A stretch of 40,879 bases of DNA from Terriglobus albidus (GTDB lineage: Bacteria; Acidobacteriota; Terriglobia; Terriglobales; Acidobacteriaceae), in contig NZ_JAGTAS010000035.1 of NCBI RefSeq assembly GCF_025685425.1, positions 1 to 40,879 of the forward strand. The letters run 5' to 3'. The notes under the pieces were generated by a model. It saw nothing but the letters and a program-made list of their open reading frames with translations. It was not told the DNA's origin and made no database searches. Numbering within the stretch: position 1 is the stretch's first letter; every line of letters starts with the position of its first letter. Positions 2,225-38,451 of the stretch are shown here, in pieces. The position numbers and the translations under genes were made by a program.

Positions 2225-3463
2225 ATGACGACCTCCACCAAGCTGACGACCAGGCGTGTCGCCGGGGCTACGACCGCCCTCATCCTTCTCACCGCTCTGA
2301 ACTTCGTCAATTACATTGACCGCTACATCCTGCCTGGTGTGCAGGAGATGGTGAAGGGCGAGTTCCATGCCTCGGACGCGGAGATTGGTTCGCTGACCAC
2401 GTGGTTCATGCTGGCGTATATCTGCGCCGCGCCGATTACTGGTTGGCTGGGCGACCGTTTTCCGCGTAAGCCGCTGGTCGTCTTCGGCGCAATCTTCTGG
2501 AGCAGCATGAACCTGCTCTCGGCTACGGTCCACACTTTCGGTGCGCTCAATCTACGGCATGCGGCTTTGGGATTGGGAGAGGCCAGCTTTGGCATCTTTG
2601 CTCCTGCCATTCTTTCGGACTTCTTTCCGGCGCAGGAGCGCAACCGGGTGATGACCATCTTCAACCTGGCCATTCCCGTCGGAGCCGCGCTCGGCTATCT
2701 GATCGGAGGTACCGTCGGCAGCCATTACGGTTGGCGCGCTCCGTTCTACGTCTCGGCGGTTCCGGGCATTCTCTTTGCGCTGATGATCCTCTTCATGATG
2801 CGCGAGCCGGAGCGCGGCGCCAGCGAGGTGGAGAAGACCAAGATCGGCAAGGCCGACCTGCTGGCGCTGGTCACCAACCGAGCCTATCTAAGCTCCATTT
2901 TTGGCTATGCGTTTATTACCTTCTGCATGGGCGGCCTCTCCTGGTGGATGCCGTCGTTCTTGCACCGGGTAAACGGCTATTCCTTGGGACAAGCTGGATT
3001 CACCATCGGAGCCATCACCGCTGTCACCGGCATTGTCGGCACAGCCACCGGCGGCTGGATCGCGAGCCGGTTGCTGAAACGTAATTCCAGTGCGCTGTAC
3101 CTGGTTTCCGCGTTCGGCTGTCTCGCCTCCATTCCGTTTGCTTTACTGACCTTCTTCGGCCCATCGTGGGCCACTTTGCCCTCGCTCGCGGGGGCGGAGA
3201 TCTGCCTGTTTCTGGGTACCGGACCGATCAATGCCGCCACGGTCAATGCAGTGACCGCCGCTAACCGGGCCTCAGCATTGGCCGGACAGCTTCTGCTCAT
3301 CCATCTGCTGGGCGATATGCCCTCGCCTCTGCTGATTGGCCTGGTGAGCGATCACTCCAACCTGCGGCTCGGTATGGGCGTCACCACTCTCGCTCTGGCC
3401 GTTGCGGGAGTCATCCTTCTTGCCGGCGGCCGATTCGTCAAACGGAATCCTGTAGCTGCATAA
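2225..3463 (+). CDS. MFS transporter, spinster-like
   Basis: Twelve-segment inner-membrane major facilitator of 412 residues. The N-terminal stretch NFVNYIDRYILPGVQ and the loop-2 motif GWLGDRFPRKP are typical of the MFS group that includes spinster-type and organic-anion transporters. The substrate cannot be told from sequence. The gene starts 62 bases after queF, with a small hairpin (AAGCGC/GCGCTT, 2167-2183) between, so it may or may not be co-transcribed. The last codons and stop (GCT GCA TAA) are the first unit of a tandem repeat that continues about 190 bases downstream. Confidence 0.85.
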   Translation: MTTSTKLTTRRVAGATTALILLTALNFVNYIDRYILPGVQEMVKGEFHASDAEIGSLTTWFMLAYICAAPITGWLGDRFPRKPLVVFGAIFWSSMNLLSATVHTFGALNLRHAALGLGEASFGIFAPAILSDFFPAQERNRVMTIFNLAIPVGAALGYLIGGTVGSHYGWRAPFYVSAVPGILFALMILFMMREPERGASEVEKTKIGKADLLALVTNRAYLSSIFGYAFITFCMGGLSWWMPSFLHRVNGYSLGQAGFTIGAITAVTGIVGTATGGWIASRLLKRNSSALYLVSAFGCLASIPFALLTFFGPSWATLPSLAGAEICLFLGTGPINAATVNAVTAANRASALAGQLLLIHLLGDMPSPLLIGLVSDHSNLRLGMGVTTLALAVAGVILLAGGRFVKRNPVAA

Positions 3464-3653
3464 CCGGCGTTTACAGCCGCACAACAGCGTTTCTCAGCTG
3501 CATACAGAGTTTCTCGGCTGCATACAGAGTTTCTCGGCTGCATAACAGCGTTTCTCAGCTGCATAACAGCGTTTCTCAGCTGCATAACAGCGTTTCTCAG
3601 CTGCATAACAGCGTTTCTCAGCTGCATAACAGCGCTTCTTAGCTGCATAACTT
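3455..3653. repeat. 21-bp tandem repeat seeded from the MFS gene's 3' end
   Basis: About nine and a half units begin GCTGCATAACAG or a close variant. Units at 3537, 3558, 3579 and 3600 are identical 21-mers, two (3497, 3517) are 20-mers, and the outer ones have diverged. The first unit overlaps the last codons and stop of the MFS gene, so most units carry an in-frame-type TAA. Read on the minus strand the repeat is open and gives a heptad pattern of the MQLRNAV kind. There are no spacers, so it is not a CRISPR array. Confidence 0.9.
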
Positions 3654-3698
3654 CGACATCGCTCGAAGCGTTTACTGGAGTGACGTCATCCAATCACC

Positions 3699-5272: not shown

Positions 5273-5619
5273 AAGAGCATTTTCCCTGTTTTGGGGTATC
5301 CCGGAAAAGCGTGCAGCTGGCGTTTTCATTGCGGCGGAAAACGCGCAGGAGGCGGAAGCCCTACACTACACCTACAGGGAAAATGCTCTAATCGCAATTT
5401 CCCTGTTGCTGGGTCTCCCGGAAGAGGAGTGCAGCGGCGTTTTCATTGCGGAAAACGCCCTTAGATGCGGAAGCCCTACACTACAGCTACAGGAAAATGC
5501 TCTAATCGCACTTTCCCTGTTGCTGGGTATCCCGGAAGAGGCGTGCAGCGGCGTTTTCATTGCGGAAAACGCCCATAGATGCGGAAGCCCTACACTACAC
5601 CTACAGGGAAAATGCTCTA
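5273..5619 (+). mobile_element. Type I MITE-like element, tandem array of three copies
   Basis: Three head-to-tail copies cover 5273-5390, 5391-5504 and 5505-5619. The outer ends are AGAGCATTTTCCCTGT and ACAGGGAAAATGCTCTA. Each copy has the central hairpin GGCGTTTTC/GAAAACGCC (degenerate in the first) and the conserved CCTACACTACA(C/G)CTACAG stretch before its right end. Inner copies begin with ATCGCA instead of AGAGCA. The array fills the divergent region between the DUF296 gene and glycerate kinase, and its right end lies 3 bases before the likely GTG start of the latter. The array at 28162-28507 has the same composition. Confidence 0.9.
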
Positions 5620-10300: not shown

Positions 10301-10415
10301 TAGAGCATTTTTCCTGTAGGTGTAGTGCAGGGTTTCCACATCTATGGGCGTTTCCGCAATGAAAACGCCGCTGCACTCCTCTTCCGGGATGCCCGGCAAC
10401 AGGGAAAATGCTCTA
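10301..10415 (-). mobile_element. Type I MITE-like element, single copy
   Basis: A 115-base copy in reverse orientation, with ends TAGAGCATTTTTCCTGT and CAGGGAAAATGCTCTA and the central GGCGTTTCC...GAAAACGCC hairpin. It lies in the cytidine deaminase-phosphorylase spacer. The last three bases of its right end (coordinates) form the TAG stop of the cytidine deaminase on the minus strand. Confidence 0.9.
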
Positions 10416-10900: not shown

Positions 10901-11017
10901 TAGAGCAGTTCTCCTAAAGGTGTAGAGCGGAGTTTTGGCACTTTGCGCCGTTTTCCTTCGAAGAAAACGGCATTCACGGTTTTATCCAACACCTACAGTG
11001 TTAGGAGAACTGCTCTA
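10901..11017. mobile_element. Type II MITE-like element
   Basis: A 117-base element with a perfect 17-bp terminal inverted repeat, TAGAGCAGTTCTCCTAA and its complement. The central hairpin is CCGTTTTC/GAAAACGG with CTTCGA between. The design parallels type I (same TAGAGCA start, central GTTTTC/GAAAAC hairpin, GGTGTAGAGC near the left end) but the sequence differs. It lies between the divergent cdd and lhr genes, and a second copy is at 35900-36033. Confidence 0.9.
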
Positions 11018-15761: not shown

Positions 15762-16667
15762 ATGCCTGAAGGCGATACCATCTTCCGTGCTGCACGAGCT
15801 CTAACCAAAGCGCTGACCGGCAAGACGGTCACGCGCTTTGAGACGGCCCTGGCGCTCTTGCAGCGTGTCCATGACGATACGCCCATCACCGGCCGCACCG
15901 TAGAAAAGGTGGAGGCGCGCGGCAAGTGGCTGTTGATCTATCTCTCCGGCGATCTGGTTCTGCTCACACACATGATGATGAACGGCTCCTGGCACATCTA
16001 TAGAACCGGAGAACGCTGGTGGCGTCCTCGCAGGGACATGCGTCTCATTCTCGGAGTGGATGGGTTCGATGCGGTGGCCTTCAATGTCCCTGTCGCTGAG
16101 TTCCACACCGCACGTTCGCTTGCGCGGCACACAGTGCTACCGAAACTTGGCCCGGATGTGCTTGACGCCAGCTTCACACCACAGACCGGTCTGGAGCGTC
16201 TCAAAGCACGAGCCGCCTCACACCCGGAAGACGAGATAGCAGTCGTTCTCCTGAACCAACAGGTGATGGCGGGTCTCGGCAATGTCTACAAGTCAGAGGT
16301 GTGCTTCACCGCGCAGGTACATCCCTTCCGCAGGATGAGTACGCTCACTGACGAGGAGATGCTGCACCTTGCCGATCACGCTCAGCGCTACATGCAGGCA
16401 AATGTGCAGGAAGGCACCAGCGGCAGCATCGTTACCTATACCGGCCCCCGCCGTACCACCCGCCGCATCGACCGCGAAGAGCGCCTCTGGGTCTACGGCC
16501 GAGCCGGAGAACCCTGCCGCCGCTGCGGCACAACCATCCTCTCGCGCAAACAAGGTACGCAGGCAAGGCCGACCTACTGGTGCCCGAACTGCCAGCCATG
16601 GAAGGGAAGCGGGGCAGCTCCGGAAGGGTGGGCGCTTTTGCGGCGAAGCCGCAAAAGCAGTTGCTAG
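15762..16667 (+). CDS. Endonuclease VIII-like (Nei/Fpg family) DNA glycosylase
   Basis: Bifunctional DNA glycosylase/AP lyase removing oxidised bases. The start MPEGDT gives the catalytic Pro2 and Glu3. The helix-two-turn-helix region includes NQQVMAGLGNVYKSE near residues 166-180, and the C-terminal zinc finger has cysteines at about 252, 255, 274 and 277. The 301 residues end in an Arg/Ser-rich tail (ALLRRSRKSSC). That tail is encoded by a hairpin (16634-16658) and by the left arm of the inverted repeat that encloses the next gene, and the TAG stop lies inside this arm. The native C-terminus was therefore probably altered by that insertion, downstream of all catalytic parts. It is co-transcribed with lhr. 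Confidence 0.93.
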   Translation: MPEGDTIFRAARALTKALTGKTVTRFETALALLQRVHDDTPITGRTVEKVEARGKWLLIYLSGDLVLLTHMMMNGSWHIYRTGERWWRPRRDMRLILGVDGFDAVAFNVPVAEFHTARSLARHTVLPKLGPDVLDASFTPQTGLERLKARAASHPEDEIAVVLLNQQVMAGLGNVYKSEVCFTAQVHPFRRMSTLTDEEMLHLADHAQRYMQANVQEGTSGSIVTYTGPRRTTRRIDREERLWVYGRAGEPCRRCGTTILSRKQGTQARPTYWCPNCQPWKGSGAAPEGWALLRRSRKSSC

Positions 16668-17110
16668 TTGCTGGTTCCTGGTTGCTAGTTGCCGGATACA
16701 ATCCCGGAATGCCGACATCTTATCGAGACCTAAAGGTCTGGCAACGCAGCATCGATTTGGCCGAGCTTATTTACAAGCTAACGAAAACCTTTCCGCGCGA
16801 AGAAGTCTTTGGGCTTTCGGCTCAGATGCGTCGAGCGAGCGTCTCTATCCCATCAAATATTGCTGAAGGCTCCGGACGAACGACTAGGAAAGATTTCCGC
16901 CAGTTTATTGTGATCGCTCGAGGTTCAAATGATGAACTGAATACACAACTCATCCTCGCCGAGCGGCTTGGTTTTGGGGATCCAGAGATGCGAAAGGGAT
17001 CGGCGCTTCTTTCGAGTGAGATAGGAAAGATGTTGACTGCCTTGGAAGCTTATCTGTTGAATACACCATGCTCGAAGAACTAGCAACCAGGAACCAGCAA
17101 CTAGCAACTG
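16658..17110. mobile_element. IVS-like element: four-helix-bundle gene in a 33-bp inverted repeat
   Basis: The arms 16658-16690 and 17078-17110 are perfect 33-bp inverted complements, starting CAGTTGCTAGTTGCTGG and ending CCAGCAACTAGCAACTG. They are rich in short GTTGCTAG/GTTGCTGG sub-repeats. The 387-base loop holds a complete four-helix-bundle gene. Outside the arms are further hairpins: GCTTTTGCGG/CCGCAAAAGC (16634-16658) on the left and CAAGCCC/GGGCTTG (17111-17127) on the right. The layout matches intervening sequences of 23S rRNA genes, but this one lies between protein genes. Confidence 0.8.
16709..17083 (+). CDS. Four-helix-bundle protein (23S rRNA intervening-sequence protein family)
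   Basis: A 124-residue protein of the family (TIGR02436-like) encoded in 23S rRNA intervening sequences; the diversity-generating-retroelement accessory Avd is a structural relative. The signature features are YRDLKVWQRSIDLA near residues 5-18, FPREEVFGLSAQMRRAS (29-45), SIPSNIAEG (47-55) and the C-terminal helix. ATG 16709 gives the typical MPTSYRDL N-terminus. Its TAG stop lies in the right inverted-repeat arm, just as the stop of the upstream glycosylase lies in the left one. The function of these proteins is not settled; RNA or nucleic-acid binding has been proposed. No reverse transcriptase or variable repeat is nearby. Confidence 0.88.
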   Translation: MPTSYRDLKVWQRSIDLAELIYKLTKTFPREEVFGLSAQMRRASVSIPSNIAEGSGRTTRKDFRQFIVIARGSNDELNTQLILAERLGFGDPEMRKGSALLSSEIGKMLTALEAYLLNTPCSKN

Positions 17111-24187: not shown

Positions 24188-24436
24188 TACCCCCCAATAC
24201 ACTGGGTGCCCCATCCATCGCGTATCGGGGTCCCCAGCGAACTCGTTCGCTGGGGTGAGAACGCGATGGGCGGGACATTCGAGCTTCGCTCGAACCGCCT
24301 TTTGTTTGTCATTTCGTAGCGATAGCGGAGAAATCCGCTTCTCTACCGATGGCTTGTCGGAAGCTCAACCGCTGAAGTCAGCTCCTGGGGCGTTGCCCCA
24401 GGCTGGTATAGAACGCGCCTTCAGCGCTCCAACTCA
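24188..24436. repeat. Nested palindromic repeat cluster
   Basis: This 249-base convergent gap holds the GGGTGCCCCATCCATCGCG repeat near 24207, a GTCCCCAGCGAA/TTCGCTGGGG hairpin inside it, TTCGAGC/GCTCGAA near 24279, and a GTCATTTCGTAGCGA segment also found near 33875 and 36263 (complement in the former). It ends with GGGGCGTTGCCCC plus CGCGCCTTCAGCGC near 24391-24428. No gene is visible. Confidence 0.75.
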
Positions 24437-26128: not shown

Positions 26129-26458
26129 ATGTGGACGATTCTGCTTCTCATTGGTTCGAACATCTTTATGACTATCGCCTGGTATGGACATCTGAAGCAC
26201 CGCGACGCCGCGCTGTGGACGGTGATTTTCGTAAGCTGGGGAATTGCTTTTTTTGAGTACTGTTTGCAGGTTCCGGCCAACCGCCTCGGCGCCAGCAAAT
26301 TCTCTCCTGAACAGCTCAAGGTGCTGCAGGAGGTCATTACCATGTCAGTCTTCGGAGTCTTTGCCGTTCTGTATTTCGGCGAGAAGCTGCGCTGGAACTA
26401 CTTCGCCGCCTTTGGTTGCCTGGTAGGCGCCGCCTTTTTCATGTTTCACAAGTTCTAA
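26129..26458 (+). CDS. DUF486 (DMT-like) small membrane protein
   Basis: Four-helix inner-membrane protein of 109 residues, DUF486 family, related to small drug/metabolite transporters. Visible features are the MTIAWYGHLK motif after helix 1, VSWGIAFFEYCLQVPANR, the QLKVLQEVITM segment and the C-terminal AAFFMFHKF. ATG 26129 has GAGGA just upstream. The function is unknown. Its TAA stop is also the first three bases of a type I repeat, so the repeat sits exactly at the gene's end. It is divergent from yggS with only 27 bases between starts. Confidence 0.9.
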   Translation: MWTILLLIGSNIFMTIAWYGHLKHRDAALWTVIFVSWGIAFFEYCLQVPANRLGASKFSPEQLKVLQEVITMSVFGVFAVLYFGEKLRWNYFAAFGCLVGAAFFMFHKF

Positions 26459-26568
26459 AACATTTTCACTGTTGCCGGGTATCCCGGAAGACGGTGCAGC
26501 GGCTTTTCATTGCGGAAAACGCCCATAGATACGGAATCCCCGCACCACACCACAGTGAAAAAGTTCTA
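26456..26568 (+). mobile_element. Type I MITE-like element, variant ends
   Basis: A 113-base copy with ends TAAAACATTTTCACTGT and ACAGTGAAAAAGTTCTA. Relative to the common form, two changes occur in both arms (GC to AC and CCCTG to CACTG on the left, with matching changes on the right), so pairing is kept. Its first bases form the stop codon of the DUF486 gene. Confidence 0.88.
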
Positions 26569-26623
26569 GCGGGCAGCACAAAATGTGCCGAAGGCGTCTT
26601 ATCTGGACGCACGGAGGTGAAAG

Positions 26624-26893
26624 ATGACCTACATGACACGCGCTGCGGTGCTGGGATGTGCCTTGAGCCTGGGCCTGACTGGTTTTGCTCAGGAAACCAG
26701 CGAGCAAACCCGCCAGGAAGCCAACAAACAGACCCAGAAGCAGCTCAAGAAAGAAGCCAAGGCTGAGAAGGCCCAGGCAAAGGCAGATAAGGCCAAGCAG
26801 AAGCAGCTGAATTCCAGCGAACAGAAGAAAGCCGACAAGGCCCAGGACAAGGCCGATAGGAAGGCAACGGAAGCAGAAATGCCACCGAAGTAG
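26624..26893 (+). CDS. Small secreted Lys/Ala/Gln-rich coiled-coil protein
   Basis: An 89-residue protein, not assigned to a family. A signal peptide (about 1-22, ending TGFA) is followed by a highly charged, low-complexity stretch of Lys, Ala, Glu and Gln with repeated KADKAKQK/KADKAQDK units, likely a single long helix or disordered. GGAGGTG lies 4-5 bases before ATG 26624, a good ribosome binding site. The stop codon at 26891 is also the first base triplet of an inverted-repeat-arm remnant. Confidence 0.75.
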   Translation: MTYMTRAAVLGCALSLGLTGFAQETSEQTRQEANKQTQKQLKKEAKAEKAQAKADKAKQKQLNSSEQKKADKAQDKADRKATEAEMPPK

Positions 26894-27261
26894 TTGCTGG
26901 TCGCTAGTTCCTGGTTGCTGGTTGAAAAACAGAGGCGGATCGAGCTCAGCTCGATCCGCCTCTATCTACCTGCCGCTATACAGTGGTGCCCCCCATCCAT
27001 CGCATCGCGATGGGTGAATGTTTGGGCGAAGCTCGAATCGGGTGGGAGCCGTGGGCTGAAGCCAGGCTTTCAGCCCACGGTCTATCGGCCATATAGAAAT
27101 GGGCTTCAGCCCTGGGCTTTTCCTCACGGACAGAGGAGGCCCAGGGCTAAAAGTCCGCCTACTTTTAGGCCTTTATCAGCGGGCTGGAAGCCCGCTGCTC
27201 CCACCAGTTTCAGCCATGCTTTTGCGCCTGCGTCAGCGCACCTGCCGTTTTACGATCTGGT
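26891..27261. repeat. Repeat-filled intergenic region
   Basis: No gene is seen. From 26891 to about 26924 lies a degenerate single copy of the GTTGCTAGTTGCTGG arm that flanks the four-helix-bundle gene. Next is the hairpin at 26931-26963 (listed separately). Around 26985-27018 is the GGTGCCCC..CCATCGC family. From 27045 to about 27147 is the GCCGTGGGCT/AGCCCACGG and AATGGGCTTCAGCCC block shared with 19486-19588. GCGGGC/GCCCGC (27178-27194) closes the region. Confidence 0.7.
26931..26963. terminator. Perfect 16-bp stem hairpin, possible terminator
   Basis: AGAGGCGGATCGAGCT and its exact complement are separated by one base and preceded by GAAAAAC. It could terminate transcripts from the small secreted protein gene or, read from the other strand where the A-run becomes U, from the DUF4188 side. 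Confidence 0.55.
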
Positions 27262-28161: not shown

Positions 28162-28507
28162 TAAAGCATTTTCCCTGCAGGTGCAGAGTAGGGTTTCCGC
28201 ATCTATGGGCGTTTTCCGCGATGAAAACGCCACTGCACTCCTCTTCCGGGATACCCAGCAACAGGGAAAATGCGATTAAAGCATTTTCCCTGCAGGTGCA
28301 GAGTAGGGTTTCCGCATCGATGGGCGTTTTCCGCGATGAAAACGCCGCTGCACTCCTCTTCCGGGATACCCAGCAACAGGGAAAATGCGATTAAAGCATT
28401 TTCCCTGCAGGTGCAGAGTAGGGCATCCGCATCTATGGGCGTTTTCCGCAATGAAAACCCCGCCGCACTCCTCTTCCGGGATACCCGGCAACAGGGAAAA
28501 TGCTCTA
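28162..28507 (-). mobile_element. Type I MITE-like element, second tandem array of three copies
   Basis: Three copies in reverse orientation at 28162-28276, 28277-28391 and 28392-28507, with a 115-base period. The first two differ at only a few positions. Junctions read TGCGATTAAAGCA, which in the element's own orientation is TGCTTTAATCGCA, matching the TGCTCTAATCGCA junctions of the array at 5273. The array lies between the VOC gene and thioredoxin reductase and fills almost all of that 391-base gap. Confidence 0.92.
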
Positions 28508-28539
28508 AAGGTGCCGACAGGATATCGCGGCCTTATGAA

Positions 28540-29781: not shown

Positions 29782-29864
29782 GAGCTCCGCCGGCTGCTAC
29801 TTTTGATCTGGGGCCGAATAGGAATTGGGTGAGCCGGTAGCACAACCTGTTGCATCGTATTGGT

Positions 29865-29979
29865 TAGAGCATTTCTCTGTTGCTGGGTATTGCGGAAGAG
29901 CGTGCAGCGGCGTTTCCTCGCGGAAACGCCCATAGGATGAGAAGCCGAAGCCCTACACACCCACGGGGAAAATGCTCCA
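29865..29979 (+). mobile_element. Type I MITE-like element, diverged copy
   Basis: A 115-base copy in forward orientation: TAGAGCATTTCTCTGTTGC at the left, hairpin GGCGTTTCC/GGAAACGCC in the middle and CACGGGGAAAATGCTCCA at the right. Its right end is 10 bases before the NDH-2 start codon and abuts the ribosome binding site. Confidence 0.88.
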
Positions 29980-29989
29980 GGGGGTACAG

Positions 29990-31330
29990 ATGGCCGAACG
30001 CAAACGGGTGGTTATTCTGGGAGCGGGATTTGCCGGTCTACGCGCAGCGCAGACCCTGGCGAAACAGGCGATGGATATCACGATCGTCGATCGTCGTAAT
30101 CACCATACCTTCCAGCCGCTGCTGTATCAGGTGGCTCTGGCTGTGCTGAATCCCTCCGATATTGCACAGCCGATCCGTGCAGTCTTCCGCCACAATTCCA
30201 ATGTCGAGGTGCTGATGGACGAAGCCATTAGCTTCGATCTCGACCGCAGGCGGGTTGATCTTCGTTCGGGTGCACAGCTCACCTACGACTATCTGATCGT
30301 CGCCACCGGATCGACGCACTCCTACTTCGGGCGTGACGAATGGTGCAAGCTGGCTCCCGGCCTGAAGACCATCGAAGACGCTGTGGAGATCCGTCGGCGC
30401 GTGTTGCTCGCTTTCGAGCTCGCCGAGCGCGAGATGCTCGAAAAAGGCACACACCCGGAGCTGAACTTCGCCATCATCGGCGGCGGACCCACCGGGGTAG
30501 AGCTTGCCGGAGCCATTTCGGACATCGCTAAGTTATACATGCGGCGTGACTTCCGCCATATCGATCCATCGCAAGCGAAGGTGCTGATTTTGGAGGGCTC
30601 GCCCAGCATTCTGGCGGCATACCCGGAGGATCTCCGCGAAAGCGCCGTCCAGCAGCTCAACCACCTTGGAGTCCAGGTGCTGACCGGGCAACACGTCACC
30701 GACGTTCAACCCGGGTACGTGATTCTGGGTACCGGACCAAACGCAAAGCGGATCGACACCGTCGTGACCCTATGGGCCGCTGGCGTGCAGGCCTCACCGC
30801 TTGGAAGACTGCTTGGGGTAGAGATCGACCGGCGCGGCTGCGTCCTGGTCGACCAATTCCTCAACCCGAAGAACCATCCGGAGATCTTCATCTGCGGCGA
30901 TCTGGCGCATGTGGAGCAGGACGGTCGCCAGGTTCCCGGCACGGCACAGCCGGCCATGCAGATGGGCATCCATGCCGCAAAGCTGATCCTCGCCGATCTC
31001 AACGGGGAGAAGCGTACCCCGTTCCACTACTTCGATAAGGGCGATATGGCCACCATCGGCCGCAAGGCGGCCATCGCCAAGGTGATCTGGCCCTTCAAGG
31101 CCCACATGTCCGGCTTTCCTGCCTGGATCGTCTGGCTGGTGATCCACATCAGCTTCCTTATCAACTTCCGCAGCCGGCTTTCGGTCTTCCGCCAGTGGGC
31201 GTACACCTATCTCTTCTTCAAAGATGGTGCACGGCTGATAGTCGGTTCACAGAACCTGCCAGGATGGAATGAGCAGCAGGTCGAAGAGAAGCTCGACCTC
31301 AATGCTCCGGAGCTCACCGCAAAACGATAG
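29990..31330 (+). CDS. Type II NADH dehydrogenase (NDH-2)
   Basis: Peripheral membrane NADH:quinone oxidoreductase that feeds electrons to the respiratory chain without pumping protons. The 446-residue product has the FAD motif [14 protein letters not shown] (residues 7-20), the [14 protein letters not shown] segment, the NADH motif [14 protein letters not shown] near 160, and [11 protein letters not shown] for the flavin. A C-terminal hydrophobic region near 365-390 should attach it to the membrane. ATG 29990 is preferred over ATG 29972 because CAGGGGG lies just upstream. A DJ-1/PfpI gene follows after 8 bases. Confidence 0.9.
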
Positions 31331-32796: not shown

Positions 32797-32910
32797 CAGA
32801 GCATTTTCCCTGTGGGTGTAGTGTAGGGATTCCGCATCTATGGGCGTTTTCCGCAATGAAACGCCACGGCACTCCCATTCCGGGATACCAGCAACAGGGA
32901 AAATGCTCTA
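32797..32910 (-). mobile_element. Type I MITE-like element, single copy
   Basis: A 114-base reverse-orientation copy with ends AGAGCATTTTCCCTGT and CAGGGAAAATGCTCTA. The left TA is CA here. It lies upstream of the HD-domain gene, about 46 bases before its start. Confidence 0.88.
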
Positions 32911-32956
32911 GCCGTAACGATGTCTGCTTTTCAGATGGGAGGCAAATTTCATTACC

Positions 32957-33574: not shown

Positions 33575-33957
33575 TTACCCATACACGGGGTGCCCCATAT
33601 TCCGGTGTCCCCTTTAGGGATATGGGTGTTCGCGCTACGCGCGAACCATCCACATGTTCGAGCGCCCGGGTGCCCCACCCCTCGCGGAGCTAGGGTGGGC
33701 CAGGAAGGCGCGAATTTCAAACAAGCCGAGGAACAGAGCGCTGAAGGCGCGCCCAATACCAGCCTGGGGCAACGCCCCAGGTTTACGACCAACAAGCGTC
33801 CAAAGGGCTGAAGGCCCGCTCTATAGTTCAACCGCCTGGGGGAACGAATAACAGCAGATTTCTCCGCCACGCTACGAAATGACAAATCAAAACACGTATC
33901 GAGCTTCGCTCGATCTCCCACAGATGCTGCGCATATATGGGGCACCCGATCCTTGGC
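33575..33957. repeat. Repeat-filled intergenic region
   Basis: No gene is seen in 383 bases. It contains GGGGTGCCCCATAT (33588), AGGGATAT and TTCGCGC/GCGCGAA hairpins (33617-33647), GGGTGCCCCACC..TCGCGGAGCTAGGGTGGG (33668-33699), GCGCTGAAGGCGCG plus CCTGGGGCAACGCCCCAGG (33738-33782), AAAGGGCTGAAGGCCCGCTCTATA (33796-33820), a CATTTCGTAGC segment in complement (33872) and TCGAGCTTCGCTCGA (33899). The copy at 33668 is the uninterrupted counterpart of the one carrying a type II element at 35900. Confidence 0.75.
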
Positions 33958-35127: not shown

Positions 35128-35243
35128 TAGAGTATTTTCCCCGTAGGAGTAGAGTAGGGCTTCCGCATCCATGGGCATTTTCCGCGATGAAAACGCCGGC
35201 TGCACTGCTCTTCCGGGGTACCCAGCAACAGGGAAATGCTCTA
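35128..35243 (-). mobile_element. Type I MITE-like element, single copy
   Basis: A 116-base reverse-orientation copy with ends TAGAGTATTTTCCCCGT and CAGGGAAATGCTCTA. It lies in the divergent region between the sigma factor and TetR genes, its right end 13 bases before the TetR start. Confidence 0.88.
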
Positions 35244-35256
35244 ATACTCGGTAGAG

Positions 35257-35823: not shown

Positions 35824-36586
35824 CAGCGGCGCAGGAGCGGTCATCCAATTCGGTTTTTATCGTCAGGAATTCAGGCCGGGGTGCCCATCCTCGCGGAGCT
35901 AAAGCATTTCTCCTAAAGGTGTAGAGCGGAGTTTTGGCAGTTTGCTCCGTTTTTCTTCGAAGAAAAGGGCATTTACAGATCTATCCAACGCTACAGTTTT
36001 AGCCAACGCTACAGTTTTAGGAGAACTGCTCTAAGGTGGGCAAGGAAGCCACTACCTTCGAACAAGCCGCTGCTCAAAAGCGCTGAAGGCGCGCTCCATA
36101 TCAGCCTGGGGCAACGCCCCAGGATAGGTTTCTCCTAAGTGCAGAAAGGGCTGAAGGCCCGCTCTATAGTCCTGCACTGAAATCAGTCCTGCACTGAAAT
36201 CAAGTGATACACCTAGTTCTCTCCTCGAAGGTATCGCGTGAAGCTCAATCTTCTTTTGATCGTTATTTCGTAGCGATGCGGACAAATTTATTTGCGCATA
36301 AATGCGCCACGATGGAGCGGGCCTTCAGCCCTTCGACCATCAATGGGATTCGTGACCTGGGGCGTTGCCCCAGGCTGATATGGAGCGCGCCTTCAGCGCT
36401 CTGTCTGCGGCTTGTTCGAAGGTCGTGGCTTCTTTTACCTGTTCTGATTCCCCGAGCGTAGTGCATCCGATCCCGTATCTGCCTCCACTCTCTTTACATC
36501 CATGGAATGGACTGAATGTTCTTCAAAAATAAATGAGCAACTACTCACTCATTATGGAGTCTGATCCTGCAGGAGGAATTTTCAAG
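35824..36586. repeat. Large repeat-filled intergenic region
   Basis: No gene is seen in 763 bases. From 35880 it has GGGGTGCCC...TCGCGGAGC, cut by a type II element (35900-36033), and resumes as AGGTGGGCAAGGAAG. Then GCGCTGAAGGCGCG plus GCCTGGGGCAACGCCCC (36079-36122), AAGGGCTGAAGGCCCGCTCTATA (36147-36168), and a CCTGCACTGAAATCA doublet (36171-36200). The inverse arrangement GGGCCTTCAGCCC and CCTGGGGCGTTGCCCCAGG follows (36320-36375), with CGCGCCTTCAGCGC (36386-36400). The CATTTCGTAGCGA segment is near 36263. Confidence 0.75.
35900..36033. mobile_element. Type II MITE-like element inserted in another repeat
   Basis: A second type II copy (134 bases) with ends TAAAGCATTTCTCCTAA and TTAGGAGAACTGCTCTA and central CCGTTTTTC/GAAAAGGG-like hairpin. 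An 18-base internal duplication (CCAACGCTACAGTTTTAG, twice) makes it longer than the copy at 10901. It interrupts a GGTGCCCC-family repeat whose uninterrupted form is at 33668-33699. Confidence 0.9.
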
Positions 36587-38346: not shown

Positions 38347-38451
38347 TAGAGCATTTTCTCTGTTGCTGGTATCCCGGAAAGGCATCCAGCGGCGTTTTCA
38401 TCTGCTCATAGATGCGGAAGCCCTGCACTGCACCTACAGTGGAACGCTGTA
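38347..38451 (+). mobile_element. Type I MITE-like element, decayed copy
   Basis: A 105-base degenerate forward copy: TAGAGCATTTTCTCTGTTGC at the left, GGCGTTTTCATC in the middle (its GAAAACGCC partner lost) and ACAGTGGAACGCTGTA at the right. It lies 12 bases upstream of the minus-strand SDR start and near the end of the rplK transcript. Confidence 0.75.

Follow-up and report, generated by a model that had tools for sequence, protein, structure and literature searches.

The window, the whole 40,879-nucleotide stretch analyzed here, is contig C38 of the 6.1-Mb draft genome of Terriglobus albidus (58 contigs; G000 below). Copies of two short repeats, types I and II, lie among genes that Pfam identifies as ordinary, including those for ribosomal protein L11 and NusG; 2 of 20 frames have no match. 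Profile searches with nhmmer identify twelve type I and two type II copies, and the loci were compared with the orthologous stretch of G002 (~90% identical) and with pieces of G012, G015 and G017:

5273..5619, plus strand: type I array of three units with joints TCTA-ATC-GCA, found by profile; empty in G002 with no visible TA
10301..10415, minus strand: type I between cytidine deaminase-like and pyrimidine phosphorylase-like genes on the same strand, found by profile; empty in G002 with one TA
10901..11017, plus strand: type II upstream of an Lhr-like helicase gene, found by profile; empty in G002 with one TA
26456..26569, plus strand: type I, found by profile; G002, G012 and G015 empty with a single TA
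28162..28508, minus strand: type I array of three units with joints at 28268 and 28383; a single copy there in G002, G012 and G015, absent from G017
29864..29979, plus strand: type I, found by profile; present in G002, G012 and G015, absent from G017 (one TA)
31329..31330, no strand: TA of an empty site in G000; type I in G002 and G015, another TA-flanked element in G012
32797..32911, minus strand: type I, found by profile; G012 and G015 empty with no clear TA, G002 site not readable
35128..35244, minus strand: type I between ECF sigma factor-like and TetR-like genes; present in G002 and G015, none seen in G017, where the left flank alone aligns
35900..36033, plus strand: type II with an 18-bp internal tandem duplication near the right end, found by profile; orthologous site not readable
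38347..38451, plus strand: type I with the central hairpin partly deleted, found by profile; empty in G002 with one TA, present in G012

The profiles derive from the window copies, so recovery of these 14 is by construction; the same search yields no further type I or type II copy in the window. A sequence-only reading had listed the same twelve and two copies, and its coordinates agree with the profile matches to within 2 bases. Its description of the copies needs amendment: the array-internal units at 5388, 5502, 28162 and 28277 do not start with TAGAGCA but have the left end TAATCGCA, and copy 38347 retains only part of its central hairpin. The unusual length of copy 35900 is explained by its 18-bp duplication.

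Both types are abundant across the genome. The 16-bp type I end, TAGAGCATTTTCCCTG, matches G000 226 times in forward and 224 times in reverse orientation with at most one mismatch (450 in total), and the reversed sequence used as a control matches 0 times in either orientation; type II ends have 20 and 23 matches and their controls 0 and 0. Counts of this size against controls of zero exclude chance. Contig C28 (640 kb), chosen without regard to the elements, yields 7 type II copies and 55 matches to type I, of which 46 reach 95 bp or more; scaled to the whole genome, this predicts ~440 copies of type I and ~65 of type II. Together the two types occupy ~1% of the genome, as calculated from 53 copies of ~116 bp in 640 kb. 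The window is denser, with 14 copies in 41 kb; C28 has 46 of type I and 7 of type II in 640 kb, counted at a length of at least 95 bp. At ~116 bp, a copy is too short to encode a transposase; the small size, the lack of a transposase gene and the high copy number are as expected of MITEs. No Rfam family spans a type I or type II element at gathering thresholds. Type II occurs in a second length class of 154–156 bp in addition to that of ~118 bp; it accounts for 17 of the 102 best-scoring covariance-model matches, has no member in the window, and in the three such copies read contains a 37-bp internal hairpin module.

Other repeats share the window. Rfam identifies Acido-Lenti-1 (RF01687, listed as an sRNA) at 24384–24428, 36079–36123 and 36356–36400, and the segment at 33737–33781 is similar to it without being an Rfam match. 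A 21-bp tandem repeat (ACAGCGTTTCTCAGCTGCATA and variants) has at least 6 copies at 3442–3670, repeats rich in GTTGCTGGTT-like units lie at 16648–16691 and 26881–26924, and a dispersed repeat of ~200 bp at 27007–27223 has further copies in C28 and G002.

The host range of the family is narrow. Searching related genomes with the ends, a check the sequence-only reading had proposed, finds hundreds of end matches in 4 of 61 genomes (own plus 60 relatives). The TAGAGCATTTTCCCTG end is present in ten of the 61, and it is abundant in G000 (450 end matches), G002 (290), G012 (253) and G015 (218); the remaining six have one or two matches each, in one case equal to the genome's own control count. All four copy-rich genomes belong to one genus, and among the 15 other genomes of that genus (of 19), 12 have no match and 3 have one. 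The four copy-rich genomes also contain type II ends, which are absent from six further genus members tested. A type II covariance model, applied to no more than 150 candidates per genome and with rough E-values, gives 4 weaker matches in G008, 1 in G010 and none in 13 other genomes. This model also detects type I copies, at E-values of ~1e-11 to 1e-13, which indicates that the two types share one layout. A suspected strand bias of the G002 copies is not real, as both orientations occur.

Comparisons with the sister genomes provide evidence for insertion at TA. Polymorphic sites, expected of a mobile element, are found between sister species, the level at which the genomes were compared, and many have a single TA. 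At locus 10301, G002 reads GGCGGC-TA-GTCG where G000 reads GGCGGC[TAGAGC...GCTCTA]GTCG. Six of the ten window loci (5273, 10301, 10901, 26456, 32797 and 38347) are polymorphic among the sister genomes, and the empty site has a single TA in four of these six, the exceptions being 5273 and 32797. Three loci (28162, 29864 and 35128) are common to the readable copy-rich relatives and are not seen in G017, to which 35128 aligns on one side alone; the tenth, 35900, is not readable. A reciprocal case lies at 31329–31330, where G000 is empty, G002 and G015 carry type I, and G012 carries a different TA-flanked element (L088 1120–1360) with ends TAGGGCGTGTCATCAAATT.

The larger contig gives a similar picture. 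Of the 53 C28 blocks, the 48 that reach 90 bp were compared with a 400-kb part of G002: 28 have no flank there, 5 are not readable, 12 are empty and 3 present; by eye, 10 of the 12 empty sites have a single TA, one of these with a few extra bases, and those at 300959 and 376701 have no clean TA. In the reverse comparison of 11 of 12 G002 blocks with G000, 4 are without flank, 3 are present and 4 are scored empty, but none of these 4 has a clean TA, one is a 36-bp remnant and the alignments are poor. The bases next to the TA are biased: a pyrimidine (T or C) precedes it in 56 of 69 cases, and a purine (A or G) follows it in 73 out of 94, the second figure including array joints. At C28:626008 a type II copy is nested in a type I copy, at C28:570987 another shares a TA with an adjoining type I copy, and one nested type II copy has TC on both flanks. 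The empty sites with a single TA indicate that the TA target is duplicated upon insertion. No excision event came to light incidentally in these comparisons.

Autonomous elements with similar ends are found among IS630-type transposases. DDE_3 transposases are present in 19 of the 61 genomes, and 30 of their loci were examined (L019, L020 and L099–L126; one further match was assigned no locus). L099, from the same genus, and L100, from the same family, have matching inverted ends ~1.02 kb apart; the left end of L103, also of the same family, resembles type II; and L102 of G015, whose TAGAGCA ends have a more distant sequence, is the sole such IS630 in the four copy-rich genomes. All six transposases compared with the NCBIfam IS630 family transposase model match it, five above the cut-off of 100 and L103, a partial frame, with a score of 93. 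A scan of named genomes with four transposases retained the best 80 of 479 loci, 61 of which have both flanks in range. Among these best 80, TAGAGC lies in the left range in 50 of 65 and in the right one in 60 of 76; 42 of 61 have it at both ends, a figure that includes several copies from one genome, such that the loci are not all independent; four scrambled hexamers give 1–2 of 65, 0–3 of 76 and 0 of 61, respectively.

The similarity extends past the hexamer, but it is partial beyond the first 13–16 bases. Over the 18 positions following the hexamer, the best IS630 ends match MITE ends at 13–14, where shuffled ends average 8.4–9.0 and reach the best score in 0–3 of 1000 shuffles; the 51 IS630 ends compared come from 32 selected loci and are not a random sample. 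The type I left end is similar to the right ends of L153, L149, L151 and L147, and the type II ends are similar to L147, L148 and L103. The earlier suggestion that two related mobilizing enzymes account for the two types fits this pattern, with type II resembling L147, L148 and L103 and type I resembling L149 and L153 among others. The sequence-only reading named two outcomes that would count against it, a lack of autonomous elements with matching ends in relatives and a lack of polymorphic sites, and neither was borne out: autonomous IS630 elements with TAGAGC ends occur in the genus, the family and beyond, and sister species differ in their insertions. No IS630 among the loci examined has the full 16-bp type I end with its sub-terminal sequence. 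L182 has the exact 16 bp at its left end, but its interior and right end differ. The two DDE_3 loci of the own genome have no match to the MITE ends and are rejected as the mobilizer, and the two of the complete genome G002 show stray hexamers only. No partner with the same ends was found within the same genome, G000, G012 and G015 being drafts; such a partner is helpful, not required, for an old family. As a side observation, by eye, L023 and L031 (both in G034) and L028 (G006) are elements or fragments with TAGAGCA-like ends and other interiors, one containing an Acido-Lenti-1-like hairpin and two containing GTCATTCTGAGC-type repeats.

Types I and II are thus very probably two related non-autonomous miniature transposon families of the IS630/Tc1/mariner kind, and the IS630/mariner-derived reading first made from the bare sequence is supported by the IS630 ends, the empty sites with TA, the polymorphism and the copy number. 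Both may be read as internal-deletion derivatives of acidobacterial IS630 elements, with both ends of an IS630-like element retained in each type and a short middle part that bears a hairpin between them. In the parent IS630, one end would read TAGAGCATTTTCCCTGTTGCTG and the other TAGAGCATTTTCCCTGTAGGTGTAG. An IS630 transposase with TAGAGC ends probably recognized the ends of a copy in trans, and would have excised it and joined it to a TA, preferably in the setting YTAR, with duplication of the TA. We infer this enzyme and its cut-and-paste steps from the ends and targets; it is not found in draft G000 or complete G002.

Hairpins and tandem arrays are also features of REP/BIME-like elements moved by Y1 (RAYT-type) transposases, of which the genome contains 10 Y1_Tnp loci. 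An origin of this sort for types I and II is nevertheless highly improbable. None of the 10 Y1 loci (3.2–3.4 kb each) is bracketed by outward type I ends, searched as a 14-mer with at most 3 mismatches, and RAYT mobilization is rejected on this count. L017 does have a type I copy on either side, but with ends pointing in the wrong direction, two Y1 loci are bracketed by Acido-Lenti-1 hairpins instead, and the TA duplication fits IS630. The Acido-Lenti-1 hairpins form inverted pairs ~0.5 kb apart, at L011 1389–1433 and 1985–2029 and at L012 1311–1355 and 1903–1947. Bracketing of 2 of the 10 loci suggests that Acido-Lenti-1 may be a transposase-associated repeat. Excerpts of one account describe tyrosine transposases flanked by terminal repeats in Acidobacteria and do not name Acido-Lenti-1 (PMC3733652).

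The tandem arrays have an unusual joint. In 30 of 34 pattern-exact G000 joints, the units are joined by TA-NNC-GCATTT rather than by TAGAGCATTT; the search, for AAATGCNNTA, 0–25 bases and GCATTT, is exact and misses altered joints such as those at 5388 and 5502. By hand tally, the 34 distinct joints comprise 30 with a three-base spacer always ending in C, one with two bases (TC) and three with 19–25 bases. The 30 three-base joints represent 19 places, 18 of which are arrays by profile search; the joint at C28:604974 adjoins a single copy only, and the arrays at the contig ends of C42 and C55 may be one array. Among the relatives, G002 has four plain two-base joints, one TGC and two longer joints at 7 places; G015 has three plain joints and ATC, AGC and GAG at 6 places; and G012 has two plain joints, ACC, GTC and four longer joints at 8 places. 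By eye, in arrays whose flanks were read, the triplets show no consistent match to the left or right flanks, and flank-derived filler was rejected as their source.

Two routes to such arrays are proposed. First, a new copy probably entered the terminal TA of an old copy, which would leave the two-base joint. Neighbors at plain joints are 77–94% identical (four pairs: L228, L238, L243 and L245), as expected for separate insertions at a shared TA. Second, we infer that units were probably copied locally by recombination from a rare dimer with the joint TA-ATC-GCA. Neighbors at three-base joints are 92–100% identical in 25 of 28 pairs and 81–87% identical in the others, where the median of all pairs is 86%. 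Array-internal units are closer to the consensus (95.2% vs 91.4%) but form no separate group. The outer ends of arrays are usually intact, so that transposition of a whole array might be possible as well.

Such movement is central to an alternative for the three-base joints, in which all go back to a single ancestral dimer that was mobile as a unit, the arrays then growing and shrinking by recombination. This is a serious contender, if somewhat short of an even chance. By place, the joint is ATC in 11 of 19, GTC in five, and CTC, ACC and AGC in one each, such that each of the eight non-ATC joints is one substitution from ATC, and the joint is identical within each of the 8 arrays with at least two listed joints. 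However, unit number differs between relatives at the same place, with three units at 28162 against a single copy in three relatives and two at C28:301894 against one in G002; internal units are often most similar to others of their own array, and they form no clear separate group. A further proposal treats TA-NTC-GCATTT as a second, joint-type left end, the arrays as aborted or one-ended transposition products captured beside their parent, and the near-invariant hairpin as a transposition or RNA signal kept in both types. It has a single basis: the three-base joint lacks exactly two bases, GA, which coincides with the cut offset of ISY100, a member of the same superfamily that, in the consulted excerpts, is cut exactly at its 3’ ends and two bases inside its 5’ ends (PMC2170065). 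We regard this proposal as rather unlikely.

The central hairpin is the most conserved part of the element. Among 117 full-length G000 copies, from which repeat-fetched loci were removed by sequence and flank identity and in which a few duplicates may remain, the central 25 bases differ from the consensus at 2.8% of positions (bootstrap 2.1–3.6), against 8.9% and 12.5% in the two arms and 8.7% and 5.2% in the two ends. Across 179 copies from four genomes, pairing is intact in 97.8% of cells for the nine base pairs of the hairpin. Changes in these pairs comprise 19 one-sided and 2 two-sided changes, with 35 broken cells; the outer stem has 34 two-sided changes, which coupled transposon ends also produce. 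Conservation of the hairpin is strong, and covariation is almost absent. An RNA-structural constraint, as suggested in the sequence-only reading, may exist: the hairpin varies least of all parts, but compensatory changes are nearly lacking.

It is conceivable, though we consider it doubtful, that the elements spread as MITEs and are now retained for a role of the hairpin in RNA, such as in processing, termination or stability of neighboring transcripts. The gap between hairpin and arm substitution argues for such a role, as do the GTTTTC/GAAAAC hairpin that both types hold despite different outer sequences and the stable folds of four elements on both strands (z of -3.4 to -8.8). Against it, the hairpin has 2 double changes to 35 broken pairs, 12 of 15 readable C28 insertions are absent from G002, and low variation could stem from selection during amplification only. 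In addition, orthologous hairpins vary at a rate close to that of the ends and lower than that of the arms: in a small set of 11 pairwise comparisons at 6 loci, 26 of 266 hairpin, 30 of 342 end and 91 of 645 arm positions differ, with 16 of the 26 hairpin differences coming from one poorly aligning locus.

Several described systems resemble these families. One is RUP of Streptococcus pneumoniae, for which the excerpts consulted give ~107 bp, ~110 copies, IS630-like ends and TA targets and a presumed mobilization by IS630-Spn1 (PMC2229807, PMC3049150); RUP differs in host and end sequence and in having its partner IS in the same species, where none was found here. Correia/NEMIS elements of Neisseria have, according to one excerpt, a similar size, TA termini, a long stem in RNA and two length classes, 107 and 155 bp, comparable to ~118 and 155 bp for type II (PMC2229807). 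The label ‘Correia-like’ is apt in design only. ERIC/IRU elements of enterobacteria are similar in design, with TA termini and many copies in the excerpted text (PMC2229807) and a length of ~127 bp in another (PMC2759123). IS630 elements with TAGAGC ends (L099, L100, L102, L103, L147–L153 and others) share TAGAGC termini, TA borders and part of the sub-terminal sequence, but they encode a transposase and are ~1 kb long. Excerpts of the RUP, Correia and ERIC literature name no acidobacterial IS630 MITE (PMC2229807, PMC3733652, PMC2864571, PMC2170065, PMC10969869, PMC3049150), although PMC3733652 describes other repeats next to tyrosine transposases in Acidobacteria. Among the papers listed in literature searches, many of them on eukaryotes and so a weak test of absence, none names the type I/II family in its title or the opening of its abstract.

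As IS630-related MITEs comparable to pneumococcal RUP, types I and II add a new pair of families to a well-known kind. The surprise is modest; what invites further attention is how array units are joined and how little the hairpin varies. Many insertions differ between sister species, and the four copy-rich genomes therefore represent a natural set for timing MITE bursts; they are equally suited to the questions of what leads IS630-type MITEs to build arrays and whether the hairpins of such elements function in RNA. Many bacterial IS630 elements are linked by the TAGAGC signature, which may aid the assignment of further orphan MITEs.
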